A stretch of DNA of 64,000 nt from Limibacillus halophilus (GCF_014191775.1 NZ_JACHXA010000003.1:248001-312000); one strand, 5' to 3'. Shown: positions 9,692 through 17,229, counted from the stretch's first letter. Notes: generated from the sequence alone by a model not told the origin. A program made the numbers and translations.

Positions 9692-10584
9692 TGCCGGATT
9701 CGACGATCGCCGAGCCTCTCGACAGGCGCTTGCACGCGTTCCGGCCGGATTTGGCCGATGCACGTCTGGAGGGCAAGGTCGCGGCTCCGAAGTTCGTGAC
9801 CGGAAAACCTGCCCAGCTCGACGCACCGCAAGCCGCGGTCCGCAAAGCGGCCAACGGCGATTCCGAACAGGAAGCCGAACTGCTTTACGGCGATCGCGTT
9901 TTGGTCTTCGAGGAAAAAGCTGGATGGGCTTGGATTCAAGGGCAGCGCGACGGCTATGTGGGTTACGTTGAAAGCAAGCTGTTGAGCGATCGGCTTTGGG
10001 ATCCCACTCATCGGGTCGCAGCGCTTCGCACCCCCCTGTTTGCCGGCCCTGGCCTCAAGACGGCCATTCGCGCCCATCTACACATGGAATCCGCGGTCTG
10101 CGTGGAAGAACAGCAAGGCAATTACGGGCAAACACGCGATGGCTGGGTCTATGCACCGCATCTGACCGCCTTCGACCAGACCGAACCGGACTATGTGGCC
10201 ACGGCGCTCAAGTTTTTAGGAGCCCCCTATGTGTGGGGCGGACGTTCGAGCCTTGGTCTGGATTGCTCCGGACTTGTCCAGATTGCATTGCAGCGCGCCG
10301 GGCTCCCCTGCCCGCGCGATAGCGATATGCAAGCCAAAAGCGATCTGCTGGGTGAACAACTTGTCGTTACGTCGGCACCTGAGCGCGGCGACTTGATCTA
10401 CTGGAAAGGCCATGTCGCGATTGCCCTGAATGCAACAGAGGTCGTAAACGCAACGGCTTCGGGCATGGCGGTGATCGTGGAGCCGTTGGCGGCTATCAAC
10501 GCGCGGGCTGTGGCAGAAAGTGGTCAGGGTGTCATTGCGATCCGGCGACCGGCGGTCTCGGCAAGGTTGTCGCGCGCTAGTTAG
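9691..10584 (+). CDS. SH3-domain NlpC/P60 cysteine peptidase
   Basis: This 297-residue protein should cleave peptidoglycan peptides, probably gamma-D-glutamyl-diamino acid bonds. An SH3-like region (about 60-150) precedes the NlpC/P60 domain. The catalytic cysteine is at about 192 in LDCSGLVQIALQ and the histidine at about 241 in KGHVAIAL. There is no clear signal peptide, so like YkfC-type enzymes it may act on imported muropeptides in the cytoplasm. Its ATG overlaps the stop of the ferredoxin gene (ATGA), an unexpected coupling of two unrelated functions. Confidence 0.9.
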   Translation: MPDSTIAEPLDRRLHAFRPDLADARLEGKVAAPKFVTGKPAQLDAPQAAVRKAANGDSEQEAELLYGDRVLVFEEKAGWAWIQGQRDGYVGYVESKLLSDRLWDPTHRVAALRTPLFAGPGLKTAIRAHLHMESAVCVEEQQGNYGQTRDGWVYAPHLTAFDQTEPDYVATALKFLGAPYVWGGRSSLGLDCSGLVQIALQRAGLPCPRDSDMQAKSDLLGEQLVVTSAPERGDLIYWKGHVAIALNATEVVNATASGMAVIVEPLAAINARAVAESGQGVIAIRRPAVSARLSRAS

Positions 10585-10888
10585 TAAGAGGCGGCGGGCC
10601 ATTGCCACCGCCGACTTGCGCCTGACACAGAGCTTCGGCCCGTTGTTTGAAAGTGGCCGCCTGGGTTTCGGTAACGACGCCTTCTTCCACCATCTTGTCT
10701 ATATCGCTGGCGCGCGCCGCCAGACAAATGGCGACAGGATCGTCTGCTGCGCGATGAACCTCATCCGGCGGAAACAGGTCTTCCCAATGAATGACCGCGA
10801 GGCTGGCCAAGGCCCCGGCAAGAACGGCCAACGCCATAAGACGCCCTCCCATCCCGTCCAGAAAGCTGTTTGGCCGATGCGTATCCAT
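10577..10888 (-). CDS. Small membrane-anchored protein of unknown function
   Basis: A 103-residue reading frame converges with, and overlaps by 8 bases, the NlpC/P60 gene. Residues 14-32 form a hydrophobic helix, probably a signal anchor, followed by a short periplasmic domain with two cysteines (AICLAA and EALCQA) that could form a disulfide. The C-terminus is glycine/proline-rich. I do not recognise the family. Coding character is supported by the clean helix plus soluble-domain layout and by the lack of a competing frame. Confidence 0.6.
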   Translation of the reverse strand: MDTHRPNSFLDGMGGRLMALAVLAGALASLAVIHWEDLFPPDEVHRAADDPVAICLAARASDIDKMVEEGVVTETQAATFKQRAEALCQAQVGGGNGPPPLTN

Positions 10889-11073
10889 GATGCTACGTTA
10901 GGTTAGATTTTTTCCGCCGCCAAGTACGGTAAGACCGCAAGAACTTTGGGGATGAACCCGGGCTTGCCAAGAGGTAAGGTGAGCACCAGATGCCATTATC
11001 ATGCCGTGACGGATTGGCTTTGCTTCGCGAGCCCCCGGGCGGTTTGATGTAAGACTGGATGGGAGTTGCACGT

Positions 11074-12075
11074 ATGACCGAGATGATCGATCCCTTCGGG
11101 AGGAATGTAAGTTACCTCCGGGTTTCGGTTACGGATCGCTGCGATTTCCGTTGCGTCTACTGCATGTCCGAAGACATGACTTTCCTGCCCAAGAAGGAAA
11201 TCCTCAGCCTGGAGGAGCTTGACCGTTTGTGCAGCGCCTTTGTTGAAATGGGCGTCAAGAAGCTGCGCATGACGGGTGGCGAGCCCTTGGTTCGCAGGAA
11301 CATCATGTGGCTGTTTCAACGGTTGGGCCGCCATTTGGAAAGCGGCGCGTTGGAAGAGTTGACCCTCACCACGAACGGTAGTCAGCTCTCCCGTTTTGCC
11401 GAGGAACTGCATGCCTGCGGCGTACGACGCATCAACGTGTCGCTGGACACCTTGAACCCGGATAAATTCAAGGCAATCACCCGTTGGGGCAAGTACGACA
11501 AGGTGATGGAAGGACTTCAAGCGGCCAAGAACGCGGGCCTCCAGGTCAAGATCAATGCCGTGGCACTCAAGGGCGTCAATGACGACGAACTCGACCATAT
11601 GGTGGACTGGTGCGGTGGCGAAGGATTCGATCTGACTTTTATCGAAGTCATGCCCATGGGAGATATCGGCGGCGAGACGCGCCTTGATCAGTATCTACCC
11701 CTTTCCATGGTCCGTGCGCGTTTGCAGGAGAAGTGGACGTTAGACGAGATCGACTACAAGACCGGCGGACCGGCGCGCTATGTAAAGGTGCGCGAAACGG
11801 GCGGGCGCATCGGTTTCATCACACCCATGACTCATAATTTCTGTGAAAGCTGTAACCGGGTTCGCTTGACCTGCACCGGTACGCTTTACATGTGCCTGGG
11901 CCAGGAAGATGCCGCCGATCTGCGCGCACCGCTGCGCGAAAGCGATGACGACGGCCCATTGCATGCGGCGATCGCCGAAGCGATTTCCCGCAAACCGAAG
12001 GGACATGACTTCATCATAGATCGTCGCCACAAAGGTCCCGCCGTCTCTCGACACATGAGTGTGACCGGAGGTTAA
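11074..12075 (+). CDS. moaA: GTP 3',8-cyclase, molybdopterin synthesis
   Basis: MoaA is a radical SAM enzyme that converts GTP to the cyclic intermediate of molybdopterin synthesis with MoaC. The SAM cluster motif CDFRCVYC is at about residues 23-30, the second cluster cysteines lie in [12 protein letters not shown] and CLG near 257-275, and the essential C-terminal double glycine is intact. I prefer the ATG at 11074 because GGGAG at 11061-11065 is well placed for it; an ATG at 11059 would add five residues. The enzyme serves the same cofactor pathway as mobA upstream. Confidence 0.95.
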
Positions 12076-12111: not shown

Positions 12112-12624
12112 TTAATTTGCCGCTCGTACGGCGGATGGGTTGAACTCGACCTTATAGGCGAAGTCACGGCCGTCGCTCGCGACGATCGAGGTGAAGCCCA
12201 TCATGTAGGCAAGGTCGAAGAAGGTGAAATCCTCCTGGATCGCCTGTTCATTCTGAAAAATCGGCAAGAGACGGGATTGCGAAGTCAATTGAGCGAAATA
12301 GGCGCGGGTACGAAAGATCGTATCGAGCAGTCCGTCATGCAAAGCCACGATAATCAAGTGATTGTCCAAGCGACCTTTGGTGAAGACGGCGACCTGTGCC
12401 GGATAGGGTGACTCCTGCTGTTGGGCGGAAACACCCGTCACGAAGGCTAGGCGAAGTTTGCGTGAAGCTTCGTTTAGGCGCTGCGCACGAGGCGGATAGA
12501 CTTCGGACACGGAAGGTTCGGGATAGTAGTAACCAACATAGCGATCCTGGGCCAAAGCGAATCCCGGGATCAGCCATAACGATATCGCCAAGACCAGATA
12601 GGACCGAATGGTAACGGCACTCAT
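12112..12624 (-). CDS. Secreted protein of unknown function
   Basis: About 170 residues with a clear Sec signal peptide (hydrophobic core about 8-22, cleavage near FALAQ). The mature part begins with a Tyr-rich stretch (RYVGYYYPEPS) and has no cysteines or recognised motif. ATGs at 12648, 12636 and 12624 are all possible starts; the last gives the most compact signal peptide. It is the third gene after the GNAT-C39 and ATP-grasp genes, 48 bases downstream, and probably belongs to that operon as a periplasmic partner or substrate. I do not recognise the family. Confidence 0.7.
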   Translation of the reverse strand: MSAVTIRSYLVLAISLWLIPGFALAQDRYVGYYYPEPSVSEVYPPRAQRLNEASRKLRLAFVTGVSAQQQESPYPAQVAVFTKGRLDNHLIIVALHDGLLDTIFRTRAYFAQLTSQSRLLPIFQNEQAIQEDFTFFDLAYMMGFTSIVASDGRDFAYKVEFNPSAVRAAN

Positions 12625-12672
12625 CACCTGCCTCATCGCTCCCCCCATTATCCAGTGCTCCCATCCTGGTTT

Positions 12673-14133
12673 TCAGCGCGCCTCGACCCGGCGCAAAAAC
12701 TCCCCCAGGACACGCTGATATAGTTGATCCTTGAGTATGGCGTCCTCGACACCTTTGTCGAGGTTAGGGTTGTCATTGATCTCTATGACATGCACGCCGG
12801 TGCCCGTCTGCTTGATATCCACCCCATAAAGACCGTCACCGATGAGATTGGCGGCCTTGACCCCCAGCTCCACGACTTCGCGCGGCGCGTCCTCGACGGC
12901 CATGGTCTTGAACCCCCCTTCTTCGACACGCCCGTCCTTGTAATGATGGACGATCTGCCAGTGTTTGCGGGTCATGAAGTACTGCGAAACAAACAGCGGT
13001 TGCTTGCCCAGCACGCCGACCCGCCAGTCGTATTTCGTGTACATGAACTCCTGGGCAAGAATAACGGCGGAACGCTGGAAAAGCTTGCGCGAGACTTCGG
13101 TCAACTGCGCGCGATCCTCGGCTTTGAACACCCCTCGCGAAAAAGAGCCGTCGGGTATCTTCAAGACGACTGGATAACCGATCTCTTCCTCGACCCGCAA
13201 AAGCTGCGGACGATCCACGATGATCGTACGCGGCGCTGACAGTTTATTGCTCTGAAGCAACTCGGCAAGATAGACCTTGTTCGTACAGCGCAACATGGAT
13301 TGCGGATCATCGATCACCGGCATGCCTTCGTGGCGGGCTTTCTTCGCAAAGCGGTAAGTGTGATTGTCGATGCTGGTGGTCTCACGAATGAAGAGAGCAT
13401 CGTACTCCGCCAGGCGCAGATAATCCTTGCGCTGGATCAGGTCCACCGCAAAGCCGATGGAAGGGCCGATCGTTTGGAACCGCTTCAGGGTCGCCGCCGA
13501 AGAGGGTGGCAAGGCCTCATTGGGATTCTGCAGGATCGCCAGGCTATAGCGCGGTTGCTGCCGCGCCTTTGGCCGTCGCCACTCAGCCTTGGTATAGCCT
13601 TCAAGCGCCGCGAGAAAGAAATCGAACTCCTCGGGACTAAGCTTGGCCGGTGAAAGAGCCTCCAGGCTATCGACGCGCCAGCGCTCCTCCTTGGCGATGG
13701 TGACGCGCACCAACGGGCAACGGAAGCGGTCGAAAAGCTCATGTGCGAGGGTTTTGAAGCGAGAATCCTGGACCTGCCCGAAACAAATGACCAGAGAGAA
13801 TCCGGTCTTGGGTGGCTGCGCCAACTTTTCCAGCGTCGTGCGCAGGATCACATTCACTTCCGGCAGTTCAACGCTGTAGAGCATCTTCCGGGTGAGGTCG
13901 ATGATAGTACCGACGCTGGGCACGACCTTCTGGCCCCGCGCTTCGGCCAGCAACGATACATAGTACCCCAAGTCCATATAACCCAAGTCACTTGATAAGT
14001 TCACAACGCGCATCTGCCGCCCGTTGTAAAGGCCTGGTTGGGTTACGTATTCACGCATCGTGACCGCTTGCCCAGCCCCTGCGGCCCAGTCCTTGTCCTC
14101 ATTCCTTTCAACCACGATCAAATGGTTCGGCAT
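12673..14133 (-). CDS. RimK-like ATP-grasp ligase with extra N-terminal domain
   Basis: The C-terminal half (about 250-485) is a RimK-type ATP-grasp fold that joins a carboxylate to an amine using ATP. Visible elements are YPVVLKIPDGSFSRGVF (ATP-binding lysine region), the GVLGKQPLFVSQY strand and the metal-binding EINDNPNLDKG near the end. The N-terminal 200 residues are an additional domain seen in long RimK relatives (RLAN type). The substrate is not known for this subgroup; peptide or amino acid amidation is expected. The start follows the stop of the GNAT-C39 gene by 2 bases, so the two are tightly coupled. Confidence 0.85.
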   Translation of the reverse strand: MPNHLIVVERNEDKDWAAGAGQAVTMREYVTQPGLYNGRQMRVVNLSSDLGYMDLGYYVSLLAEARGQKVVPSVGTIIDLTRKMLYSVELPEVNVILRTTLEKLAQPPKTGFSLVICFGQVQDSRFKTLAHELFDRFRCPLVRVTIAKEERWRVDSLEALSPAKLSPEEFDFFLAALEGYTKAEWRRPKARQQPRYSLAILQNPNEALPPSSAATLKRFQTIGPSIGFAVDLIQRKDYLRLAEYDALFIRETTSIDNHTYRFAKKARHEGMPVIDDPQSMLRCTNKVYLAELLQSNKLSAPRTIIVDRPQLLRVEEEIGYPVVLKIPDGSFSRGVFKAEDRAQLTEVSRKLFQRSAVILAQEFMYTKYDWRVGVLGKQPLFVSQYFMTRKHWQIVHHYKDGRVEEGGFKTMAVEDAPREVVELGVKAANLIGDGLYGVDIKQTGTGVHVIEINDNPNLDKGVEDAILKDQLYQRVLGEFLRRVEAR

Positions 14134-14135
14134 GG

Positions 14136-15323
14136 CTAACCTGCGCCTCTAGATGTTGTGTCTGGCGTCGACAACACGATGGCGGCGCTGAGCCTATTCT
14201 GGCCGTAGCGAGCCATGCGTTCGAGCTCCTCGCCGCGCACAGCAATGTTAATGGAATCCAAGGGTGTCTTTCCCTCGTCGCGATCGACAAAGGGGTCGTG
14301 TAGATAAAACAAACGATCATCGCAGCCCGTTACCACCACCCAATGCGGCATCTTCTCGCCCCACATTCGATAACTGCTGACGAGAACCACGGGTAGGGCG
14401 CCACTGTTCAGGAAGCGCCTCAGGTCCTTTGCCGTCAGCCGACGCCGATGCGTTGCGATCTTCGCCGCCTTGGCTTGGTTTCTGAAATCCTCCTGAACCA
14501 ACTTCATGGCCTGCCGCTTTTTCATACTGCGGACCGATTGCAGGAAAAGGGACCCGGGATCGGTTACGAATATTTCTGGTTTCAATCCGCGCCGCTGCGC
14601 TGCCAAGGCAAGACCATAGGGACCACATCCTCCGTGTCCGGAAGTCATGAAGATCAAAGTGGCTTCTCGCCAGAGCCGCAGTTCTTCGGTCGTGCTTGGT
14701 TCATAGTCGGGCAAAAATGCCGATAAGGCCATCAACAGACAGGCTGGCCCACAAGTGAATTCCTGCGTCTGCTCGTAGAAGGGAACATGCGGCATGTCCG
14801 GCATGGGGCCACCGACCAACCGCTTTTCCATTCGCAGCGCATCAACGTCGTCTTCGTAATAGGCGTTCCAAATACCGATGTCGCGATAACCGGCGCGGTG
14901 ATAAAGCGCGATTGCTGCGGCATTGTCGCGTCGCACCTCTAATCGGACATAAGCGCAACCCTCGTCACGCGCGGCCTCCTCCACCTCCAACAACAAGCGC
15001 GCGCCGAGATTGGCGCCGCGCTGATTGGGGAGAACCGCCAGGGAATAAAGCCGGGACAACGACGAAGTTCCGTGCAGCAGGACCAACGCATATCCCTGCA
15101 ACTGTCCATCCGGCGACTCGGCTACGCGGAACAAGGCATGCCCCTTGCGCAGCAGATGATGGAAGCTCCGCCGCGATAGCTTGTCGGCACTAAAGCAAGC
15201 GTCTTCCAACGCGACGAGTTGCGCCAGATCTTCTGCCTTCGCCGGCCTGATAATTATGCCGCCGGTCGAATCCGAATCAGCGGCCGGTGCTGTCTTTTCT
15301 TTGCTGGTTGTACGGCTTCGCAT
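14136..15323 (-). CDS. GNAT acetyltransferase fused to C39-like peptidase
   Basis: The ATG at 15323 is chosen because AGGA sits seven bases upstream; a GTG at 15356 is an alternative. Residues about 25-180 form a RimI-like GNAT domain with the acetyl-CoA loop QRGANLGARLLLE and the later NAAAIALYHRAGY. Residues about 190-390 form a papain-like C39 domain with the catalytic stretch QTQEFTCGPACLLMA and a later HWVVVTGCDD histidine and HDPF. Such peptidases usually cut peptides after a double glycine, but here there is no exporter. Together with the next gene it suggests peptide cleavage, ligation and acetylation in one pathway. Confidence 0.85.
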   Translation of the reverse strand: MRSRTTSKEKTAPAADSDSTGGIIIRPAKAEDLAQLVALEDACFSADKLSRRSFHHLLRKGHALFRVAESPDGQLQGYALVLLHGTSSLSRLYSLAVLPNQRGANLGARLLLEVEEAARDEGCAYVRLEVRRDNAAAIALYHRAGYRDIGIWNAYYEDDVDALRMEKRLVGGPMPDMPHVPFYEQTQEFTCGPACLLMALSAFLPDYEPSTTEELRLWREATLIFMTSGHGGCGPYGLALAAQRRGLKPEIFVTDPGSLFLQSVRSMKKRQAMKLVQEDFRNQAKAAKIATHRRRLTAKDLRRFLNSGALPVVLVSSYRMWGEKMPHWVVVTGCDDRLFYLHDPFVDRDEGKTPLDSINIAVRGEELERMARYGQNRLSAAIVLSTPDTTSRGAG

Positions 15324-15499
15324 TCTCGGTTCCTGAACCAACGTAACTGAGCGCACTTTGCGCAGCAGATGACGATTCCGTCTTCACGCTTACTATGCAT
15401 GACAGCCACGACGAATGCACGCGGCTGGCTTGCCGCGGTCGCTTGGTTATACTCTTTGCCAGACAGCCGCCGACGGGGGGCAGTAAGGGAGGGTTTCTT

Positions 15500-16258
15500 T
15501 TGAAGATTGCAATCGTTTCGGCTGACTCCGGGGAAGCAAAGACAGCCGAAAAGCGTTTGAAGCAGCGCTACGGCTGCGCGGCGCCCCAGGATGCTTCTGT
15601 GATCGTTGCTCTGGGAGGCGACGGGTTCATGCTGGAAACCGCCCACGCCCACCTCGGCAGCGGCAAGGCCATCTACGGTATGAATCGTGGCACCGTCGGC
15701 TTCCTTATGAATGCCTACGATGAAGATAACCTCGAAGAGCGCCTGAGCGCTGCCGAACAGGTAAAACTCAATCCTTTGCGAATGTTGTCCCGCACAGTCG
15801 ATGGACAGGAGCAGAATGCCCTGGCGATCAACGAGGTTTCGCTCCTGCGACAAAGCAGACAGGCCGCAAAAATACGTATTTCCGTCGACGGAGTGCTGCG
15901 CCTGGATGAATTGATATGCGACGGCATACTGCTATCTACGCCCGCCGGGAGCACCGCCTACAACCTCTCCGCCCATGGGCCAATCATTCCCATTGGAACC
16001 CCCTTGCTTGCGATGACGCCGATCAGCGCCTTTAGACCGCGCCGGTGGCGCGGCGCATTGCTCCCGCACCGCGCCCGGGTGCGGTTCGATGTTCTTGATG
16101 CCCAGAAGCGTCCTGTATCGGCAACGGCGGACTATACCGAGGTCCGCGATGTTGCCTCGGTCGAAGTATACGAAGACCGCGACGTCTCCGTGCCGCTGCT
16201 CTTCGACTCCGAGCACAACCTCGAAGAGCGCATTCTGCGGGAACAGTTTCTGCCCTAG
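15500..16258 (+). CDS. nadK: NAD kinase
   Basis: This enzyme phosphorylates NAD to NADP. The 252-residue protein has the catalytic [11 protein letters not shown] motif, [10 protein letters not shown] and the nucleotide-binding [18 protein letters not shown] block. I place the start at the TTG at 15500, seven bases after a strong GGGAGGG ribosome binding site; an upstream in-frame reading from 15395 would add 35 unrelated residues. It is transcribed divergently from the GNAT-C39 operon. Confidence 0.94.
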
Positions 16259-16371: not shown

Positions 16372-17229
16372 ATGGTTGAAAGAGCGGCCGCAGCCATCGA
16401 CTTAGAGCGCTTTCCGATTCATGAAAGTCAATCTCAATCCTATCTGGCCCTCCTCGCCGAGGTACGCCAGCAACTTAAAGAAACCGGTTGTGCCCGGCTT
16501 AAGTCCTTCGTGAACTCGGCTGCAGCGCGCGCGTTGCAGGATGAAGTCAGCGGCGTCGCAGGACAGGCCTATCGTTCTTACAACAAGGTCAATCCCTACT
16601 TCACTGCCGATGACCCCACATTGCCGGCGAGCCACCCCCGCCGCCACTTCGAACGCAGGTCTAACGCCTTCATTCCGGCGGATTCCTTTGGCGCTAACAG
16701 CCTTCTCCGTGCCATTTACGAATGGCAGCCGTTTACGGACTTTATCCGATTGGCGCTGGGTGAGAGCGAGGATAGCTTCTTTCAGTATGACGACCCGCTG
16801 GCGGACGTAATCGTAAATGCCGTGGACCCCGGAGACGGTTTCCCTTGGCATTTCGATACAAACACCTACACGGTCACACTCGGCATTCAGCCCGGCGAAG
16901 GCGGCGGCACCTTCCAATACCATCCCAAGCTGCGCAGCAAGTCAGGTGAAAACTATGATCGCGTAGCCGCCGTGCTGGGTGGCGATCTGTCGGGTGTCCG
17001 CTCCCTCACCCTTGGCCCCGGTGATTTGCAGATATTCCTCGGTCGCTACTCCCTGCACCGGGTGACCGCGGTGACCGGTACAACCTCCCGCTATGTTGGA
17101 ATTTTCTCTTATGCCAACGAACCGCAGATGTGCGGGCGCGTGGAACGGACCCGCCAGCTCTACGGACGGGTCCTGGATATTCACCTGCAACGGGAAGCGC
17201 TCCTGCGGGGCGATACCCTGCACGACTAA
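16372..17229 (+). CDS. Fe(II)/2-oxoglutarate oxygenase, HalD/BesD-like
   Basis: The 285-residue protein has a complete iron-binding facial triad: His160 and Asp162 in FPWHFDT, and His229 in RYSLHRVTAV, with Arg240 placed to bind 2-oxoglutarate. The fold and motif spacing resemble the HalD/BesD group that acts on free amino acids. Halogenating members replace the Asp with Gly; here Asp is present, so hydroxylation is expected. The amino-acid-like theme is echoed by the M20 deacetylase 1.5 kb downstream. The true substrate is unknown. AGGA at 16363-16366 precedes the ATG. Confidence 0.75.
   Translation: MVERAAAAIDLERFPIHESQSQSYLALLAEVRQQLKETGCARLKSFVNSAAARALQDEVSGVAGQAYRSYNKVNPYFTADDPTLPASHPRRHFERRSNAFIPADSFGANSLLRAIYEWQPFTDFIRLALGESEDSFFQYDDPLADVIVNAVDPGDGFPWHFDTNTYTVTLGIQPGEGGGTFQYHPKLRSKSGENYDRVAAVLGGDLSGVRSLTLGPGDLQIFLGRYSLHRVTAVTGTTSRYVGIFSYANEPQMCGRVERTRQLYGRVLDIHLQREALLRGDTLHD

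Follow-up and report, generated by a model that had tools for sequence, protein, structure and literature searches.

A known, uncharacterised pair of acetyltransferase and RLAN-type ligase genes lies beside an unrelated exported-protein gene in Limibacillus halophilus

In the 64-kb window, i.e. the whole stretch of Limibacillus halophilus DNA which was analysed, the minus strand carries the three open reading frames described in the original prediction. They encode a GNAT acetyltransferase fused to a C39-like peptidase, an RLAN-RimK-type ATP-grasp ligase and an exported protein (Table 1). ORF analysis, Pfam searches and alignments confirmed the genes together with the domains, catalytic motifs and signal-type leader that had been assigned to them. 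The genes of the GNAT-C39 protein and of the ligase are spaced by 2 bases, while the spacing between the ligase gene and the secreted gene amounts to 24 bases if the first ATG of the latter is used and to 48 bases, as predicted originally, if its third in-frame ATG is taken as start. Since each of the three products represents a conserved protein family and has dozens of homologues, the observation of three genes at this site is far beyond chance. Promoter and terminator scans of the locus gave no clear gain over shuffled sequences. A reading as a defence system was rejected, as the PADLOC families returned just a DrmC fragment of 15.6 bits (E = 0.003). Adjoining the NAD kinase gene, a match to PF23169 (“Halogenase D”) is present at 16372-17229 on the plus strand (44.1 bits compared to a cut-off of 26). 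On the other flank, a 103-residue ORF is located upstream of moaA (10577-10888, minus strand) whose position is retained in the relatives G240, G241, G276, G279 and G028.

Table 1. Features of the L. halophilus locus, with positions counted from the first base of the window.
Feature	Position	Strand	Remarks
GNAT-C39 fusion gene	14136..15323	-	ATG start at 15323; ORF opens at GTG 15356
RimI/Ard1-like GNAT domain	14817..15254	-	residues 35-180 of the 406-aa ORF; Asn116 codon 15009-15011
C39-like papain-fold peptidase domain, DUF3335, PF11814	14172..14786	-	conserved C202/H338/D354/Q196
RLAN-RimK-type ATP-grasp ligase gene	12673..14133	-	
RLAN domain, PF14401	13609..14055	-	residues 27-175
RimK-like ATP-grasp domain, PF08443	12754..13281	-	residues 285-460; K325, D439, E451, N453 invariant
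Exported protein, nameless alphaproteobacterial family	12112..12648	-	member of the moaA/NAD-kinase block, outside the ligase module
moaA (radical SAM + Mob_synth_C)	11059..12075	+	convergent to the secreted gene; retained in relatives
NAD kinase	15395..16258	+	as a rule adjacent to and divergent from the secreted gene where the pair is absent

The ligase belongs to the RLAN-RimK family, with 146.3 bits for PF14401 (E = 7e-43; cut-off 25) and 38.8 bits for PF08443 (E = 9.4e-10; cut-off 21). Its four Mg/ATP residues (Table 1), which were aligned to the RimK and LysX structures, are invariant in all 25 aligned sequences. Both profile comparison and the predicted fold (pLDDT 86; Foldseek E of about 1e-16 to solved relatives) identify RimK, LysX and ArgX as the nearest solved structures. 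The RimK residues contacting the bound glutamate chain include R64, R189, N262, S7, R8 and S14 (PMC10092738). The first three of these align with Arg250, Arg371 and Asn453 of the ligase, all of which are invariant, and the remaining three belong to the N-terminal part of RimK, outside the region which can be aligned to the ligase. The scores against the families of the S6 glutamate ligase RimK itself stay below the respective cut-offs (88.1 versus 143.4 bits for TIGR00768 and 29.6 versus 331 bits for NF007764). The enzyme is predicted to work like RimK, though it is not classed as RimK. Which amino acid it would use cannot be read from the sequence.

The GNAT-C39 protein matches PF00583 (GNAT) with E = 2.3e-14 and PF11814 (DUF3335/C39-like) with E = 1.1e-83, and the combination of a GNAT domain with a PF11814 domain harbouring Cys, His and Asp makes it a member of the GNAT-DUF3335 fusion family. 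The four conserved peptidase residues listed in Table 1 are invariant in 18 of 18 aligned sequences. The nearest relatives of the GNAT domain are archaeal Ard1, RimI and related N-terminal acetyltransferases. A conspicuous deviation is found in its acetyl-CoA loop (Q/RxxGxG/A) which, in L. halophilus, reads RGANLG and thereby presents an asparagine (Asn116) at a position occupied by glycine in the other 17 sequences. This exchange, unique among the 18, may weaken the acetyltransferase of this particular locus. With the NAGGN synthetase family TIGR03103 the protein scores 28.9 bits, far below the cut-off of 569, and the 25 best-matching families for the ligase do not include TIGR03103. A passage of PMC10318531, citing Iyer et al. 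2009, already places fusions of DUF3335 to GNAT domains on record, so that the fusion as such is not new. The reported fusions share the domain architecture of the L. halophilus gene and differ little from it, the fused form adjoining RLAN ligases here. What is added by the present analysis is that the C39 domain is dispensable and that the GNAT is the constant partner. The literature covered by the search contained no paper testing the function of either RLAN or GNAT-C39 proteins.

The exported protein possesses a hydrophobic leader ending in ALA|QDR. It matches no Pfam and no NCBIfam family, and Pfam recognises none of its 27 homologues. A comparison by sequence with solved structures reveals no relative (best E = 0.23), and the plasmid collection contains no match. 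Its fold is predicted with confidence (pLDDT 86.8), yet Foldseek finds nothing that matches the model at E <= 0.001, and the Z scores from VIA-align do not exceed 5.0. Within the family the leader is variable and the start of the mature protein is conserved (usually DRHxGYYYP). As far as sampled, clear matches are restricted to Alphaproteobacteria; three weak partial hits outside this class (E of at least 1e-4) were treated as chance.

The original prediction had tentatively assigned this protein to the same system as the two enzymes, as a substrate or a periplasmic partner. The distribution of the genes contradicts this. Among 240 alphaproteobacterial genomes the secreted gene is present in 48, RLAN in 28 and both in ten, a weak association (Fisher p = 0.04, kinship ignored). 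RLAN is absent from 38 of the 48 genomes having the secreted gene, and the secreted gene from 18 of the 28 having RLAN. In most genomes the secreted gene is thus present without the pair, which is the outcome that the original prediction had named as refuting it. Apart from L. halophilus, eight of the nine genomes with both carry them on different contigs and one (G028) carries them 10 kb apart. In 26 of 29 loci of the class an NAD kinase gene lies divergently within 450 bases of the secreted gene, with moaA often convergent on its other side, whereas RLAN is found there in none of the 29. Conversely, the secreted gene does not occur within 8 kb of RLAN in any of 80 named RLAN loci, as far as the contigs reach. 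The L. halophilus gene and those of loci L005-L031 and L092-L104 represent an unnamed exported family whose genes are linked to NAD kinase and moaA through their location.

How the three genes may have come to be contiguous is suggested by the order to which L. halophilus belongs. Here, the secreted gene is situated beside NAD kinase in 10 of 14 loci, and nothing lies between the two genes in G241, G242, G243, G245, G248, G268, G275, G281, G282 and G285. In G028 they are likewise adjacent, with the GNAT-C39 and ligase pair residing at the distance mentioned above, while G275 and G281 harbour the pair at another site where the secreted gene is missing. Among the genomes read, only L. halophilus, G240, G276, G279 and G250 have the pair between the secreted gene and NAD kinase. 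The predicted conservation of the gene order across families is hence limited to these five genomes, which represent three family-level groups of a single order. The simplest reading of these arrangements is an arrival of the pair within an older block of moaA, secreted gene and NAD kinase. In the ligase tree, the copies from the five genomes with this linkage and that of G028 fall within a well-supported set of 13 which also includes seven copies from other sites, a grouping compatible with one origin at this site as well as with more than one. Since the three genes adjoin one another and point the same way in these five genomes, co-transcription of the secreted gene is possible there.

The link between acetyltransferase and ligase, in contrast, proved to be robust. 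A GNAT gene is present within 3 kb of RLAN in 72 of the 75 named loci whose sequence extends 1.2 kb or more upstream of RLAN, although it has to be considered that named loci are best matches to the query and that distant RLAN lineages are therefore under-sampled. Counted by hand-made genus-level labels, GNAT adjoins RLAN in 43 of 46. Among the 75 loci, an adjacent GNAT is lacking in L129, L165 and L182. The same pairing is seen in the loci from Alphaproteobacteria, and altogether the combination of an RLAN ligase with a RimI/Ard1-like GNAT occurs throughout Pseudomonadota and in a small number of further phyla. The two genes are divergent in 42 named loci, as in Pseudomonas, and co-directional in 30, as in Alphaproteobacteria. 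That adjacency is kept while orientation changes argues for a functional relationship rather than for frozen gene order or inherited synteny alone. It is very probable that the pair forms a unit of which the secreted gene is not a part. In the main, the L. halophilus locus is ordinary: a known, uncharacterised pair of GNAT-C39 protein and RLAN ligase beside an unrelated gene. RLAN neighbourhoods are reportedly discussed in the study of amidoligase neighbourhoods by Iyer et al. from 2009.

The C39-like peptidase is a less constant element. It is fused to the GNAT in 54 of the 75 named loci, and in 17 of the 28 RLAN-bearing genomes of the class such a fusion adjoins RLAN. One of the remaining genomes (G180) contains DUF3335 only elsewhere than at the RLAN locus, and ten are devoid of it genome-wide, all of these having GNAT alone beside RLAN. 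Five genomes contain DUF3335 outside the pair, for the most part in ORFs of its own with a length of about 220-250 residues. The co-occurrence of DUF3335 with RLAN is nevertheless pronounced (Fisher p = 1.4e-16, kinship ignored), in agreement with the originally proposed link between an acetyltransferase-peptidase and the ligase. On the ligase tree at least 11 changes between fused and unfused state are required, compared to 24 for shuffled labels. Since the GNAT frequently occurs without C39, the module does not depend on the peptidase, an optional addition to the C-terminus of the GNAT which modifies the pathway and does not define it. Of the trimming, ligating and acetylating set envisaged originally, the pairing of ligase and GNAT stands, and the peptidase as a necessary part does not.

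Among the neighbouring ORFs, clustering reveals a single additional gene recurring in distant genera. It encodes a DUF2817 (M14-like) protein, was found under five genus labels and mostly sits between GNAT-C39 and RLAN (L166:6713-7846, L183:6696-7838, L137:6735-7865, L184:6763-7833, L191:1635-2936 and L122:9492-10580). A role of DUF2817 as a class-wide partner was discarded: it is present in 62 of the 240 genomes of the class in general and located on another contig (C2) in L. halophilus, so that its occurrence beside the pair under five genus labels gives no more than a hint. At L190:1925-3514, in a gammaproteobacterial MAG, a GNAT-carbon-nitrogen hydrolase fusion is encoded directly downstream of the RLAN ligase gene, with a contig edge upstream.

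From the anatomy of the genes, their conservation and the integrity of their active sites we infer a reaction, a substrate and a product for a cytoplasmic module of two genes rather than a system of three. In the manner of RimK, the ligase would convert a C-terminal carboxylate, be it that of an amino acid, of a short peptide or of a protein tail, into an acyl phosphate and would add amino acids to it. The product would be acetylated at its free alpha-amine by the GNAT. In genomes that possess the C39 domain, this peptidase would hydrolyse the peptide or tag and thereby set its length or reverse the modification, as RimB counters RimK. RimK-like amino-acid ligation combined with RimI/Ard1-like N-acetyl capping and optional trimming by C39 is suggested by the relationships of ligase and GNAT and by the constancy of their genes; it is our best explanation and may well apply, although we put it forward tentatively. 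Ligation and acetylation taking place in the cytoplasm, as already supposed in the original prediction, make the most sense. As the product, a small soluble N-acetylated peptide appears favoured over a protein tag, since the near-constant partner is an acetyltransferase of the N-terminal type and no conserved exporter or precursor gene accompanies the pair. More speculatively, RLAN ligase and RimI/Ard1-like GNAT could represent a widespread, undescribed pathway to an N-acetylated peptide or an acetylated amino-acid tag, in which interchangeable optional peptidases, i.e. the C39 fusion or the M14-like DUF2817 protein, would set or reverse the product. The interest of the locus lies in whatever product this widespread pair makes. 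Replacing the misleading three-gene reading by a constant unit of GNAT and RLAN ligase with an optional peptidase narrows the search for it to compounds which would need both ligation and N-acetylation. As the pair is present in Pseudomonas and Azospirillum, this search can be carried out in tractable laboratory strains.

Two known systems may serve as models for the pair, not as its families; the L. halophilus proteins miss the curated cut-offs of both. The nearest functional model is NAGGN synthesis, in which an N-acetylated dipeptide is built jointly by a GNAT and an ATP-grasp ligase, the ATP-grasp being part of the GNAT protein. This pathway comprises the GNAT protein, an asparagine synthase and an aminopeptidase, and its product is an osmoprotectant (PMC8070244). 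It differs from the present pair in the fusion of GNAT and ligase, in the asparagine-synthase partner, which is absent here, and in the subfamily concerned. The second model is RimK/RimB, in which the peptidase RimB removes the polyglutamate written by RimK on ribosomal protein S6 (PMC11957791). With this system the pair shares a RimK-type ATP-grasp in which the Mg/ATP residues are identical, the three aligned glutamate-contact residues and, in many genomes, a peptidase partner. In contrast to RimK/RimB, the module described here features an RLAN N-terminal domain, a constant GNAT and a cysteine peptidase of the C39 type instead of a retropepsin; in the L. halophilus genome no retropepsin of the RimB type (PF05618) is found. 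With the rlo operon (RloA/B/C) the locus shares only the theme of an ATP-grasp ligase gene accompanied by a peptidase, while the transglutaminase-7TM protein and the secreted retropepsin of that operon have no counterpart here and the local secreted gene is unrelated (PMC12239564).

The precedent of RimK and RimB raises the question of whether the RLAN ligase writes a tail on the C-terminus of a protein which C39 erases, the GNAT modifying the same protein or its tail. Such reversible tagging would suit the RimK-type catalytic and glutamate-contact residues retained in the ligase as well as the recurrence of peptidases, be it C39 or DUF2817, near RLAN. The eraser, however, is dispensable, and the constant partner is an acetyltransferase of the N-terminal type for which a role at a C-terminus is not obvious. 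Tagging of this kind is considered less likely than the reading given above. Graspetide and other RiPP clusters contain C39 peptidases, ATP-grasp ligases and GNATs, which would be in line with a maturation pathway in which C39 removes the leader of a ribosomal precursor, the ATP-grasp enzyme introduces cross-links or an extension and the GNAT adds a cap. Yet, no precursor-like ORF recurs beside RLAN, which is weak evidence as ORFs of at least 90 residues were compared across the loci, and the intergenic space between GNAT-C39 and NAD kinase holds ordinary short ORFs alone, none of them a plausible precursor. The small precursor peptide gene anticipated in the original prediction did not emerge as a conserved neighbour, nor does any exporter recur beside RLAN, and we regard RiPP-like maturation as improbable. 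Least probable is a three-gene operon whose exported product serves the cytoplasmic enzymes as substrate or periplasmic partner: its tight co-directional spacing in L. halophilus and the four relatives sharing the arrangement stands against the independent distribution of the secreted gene, by which it is already refuted as a general system.

Regarding the exported family itself, a second, divergent paralogue (about 28-31% identity) is encoded in G285 and G248 (loci L105 and L106), at sites apart from NAD kinase and moaA.
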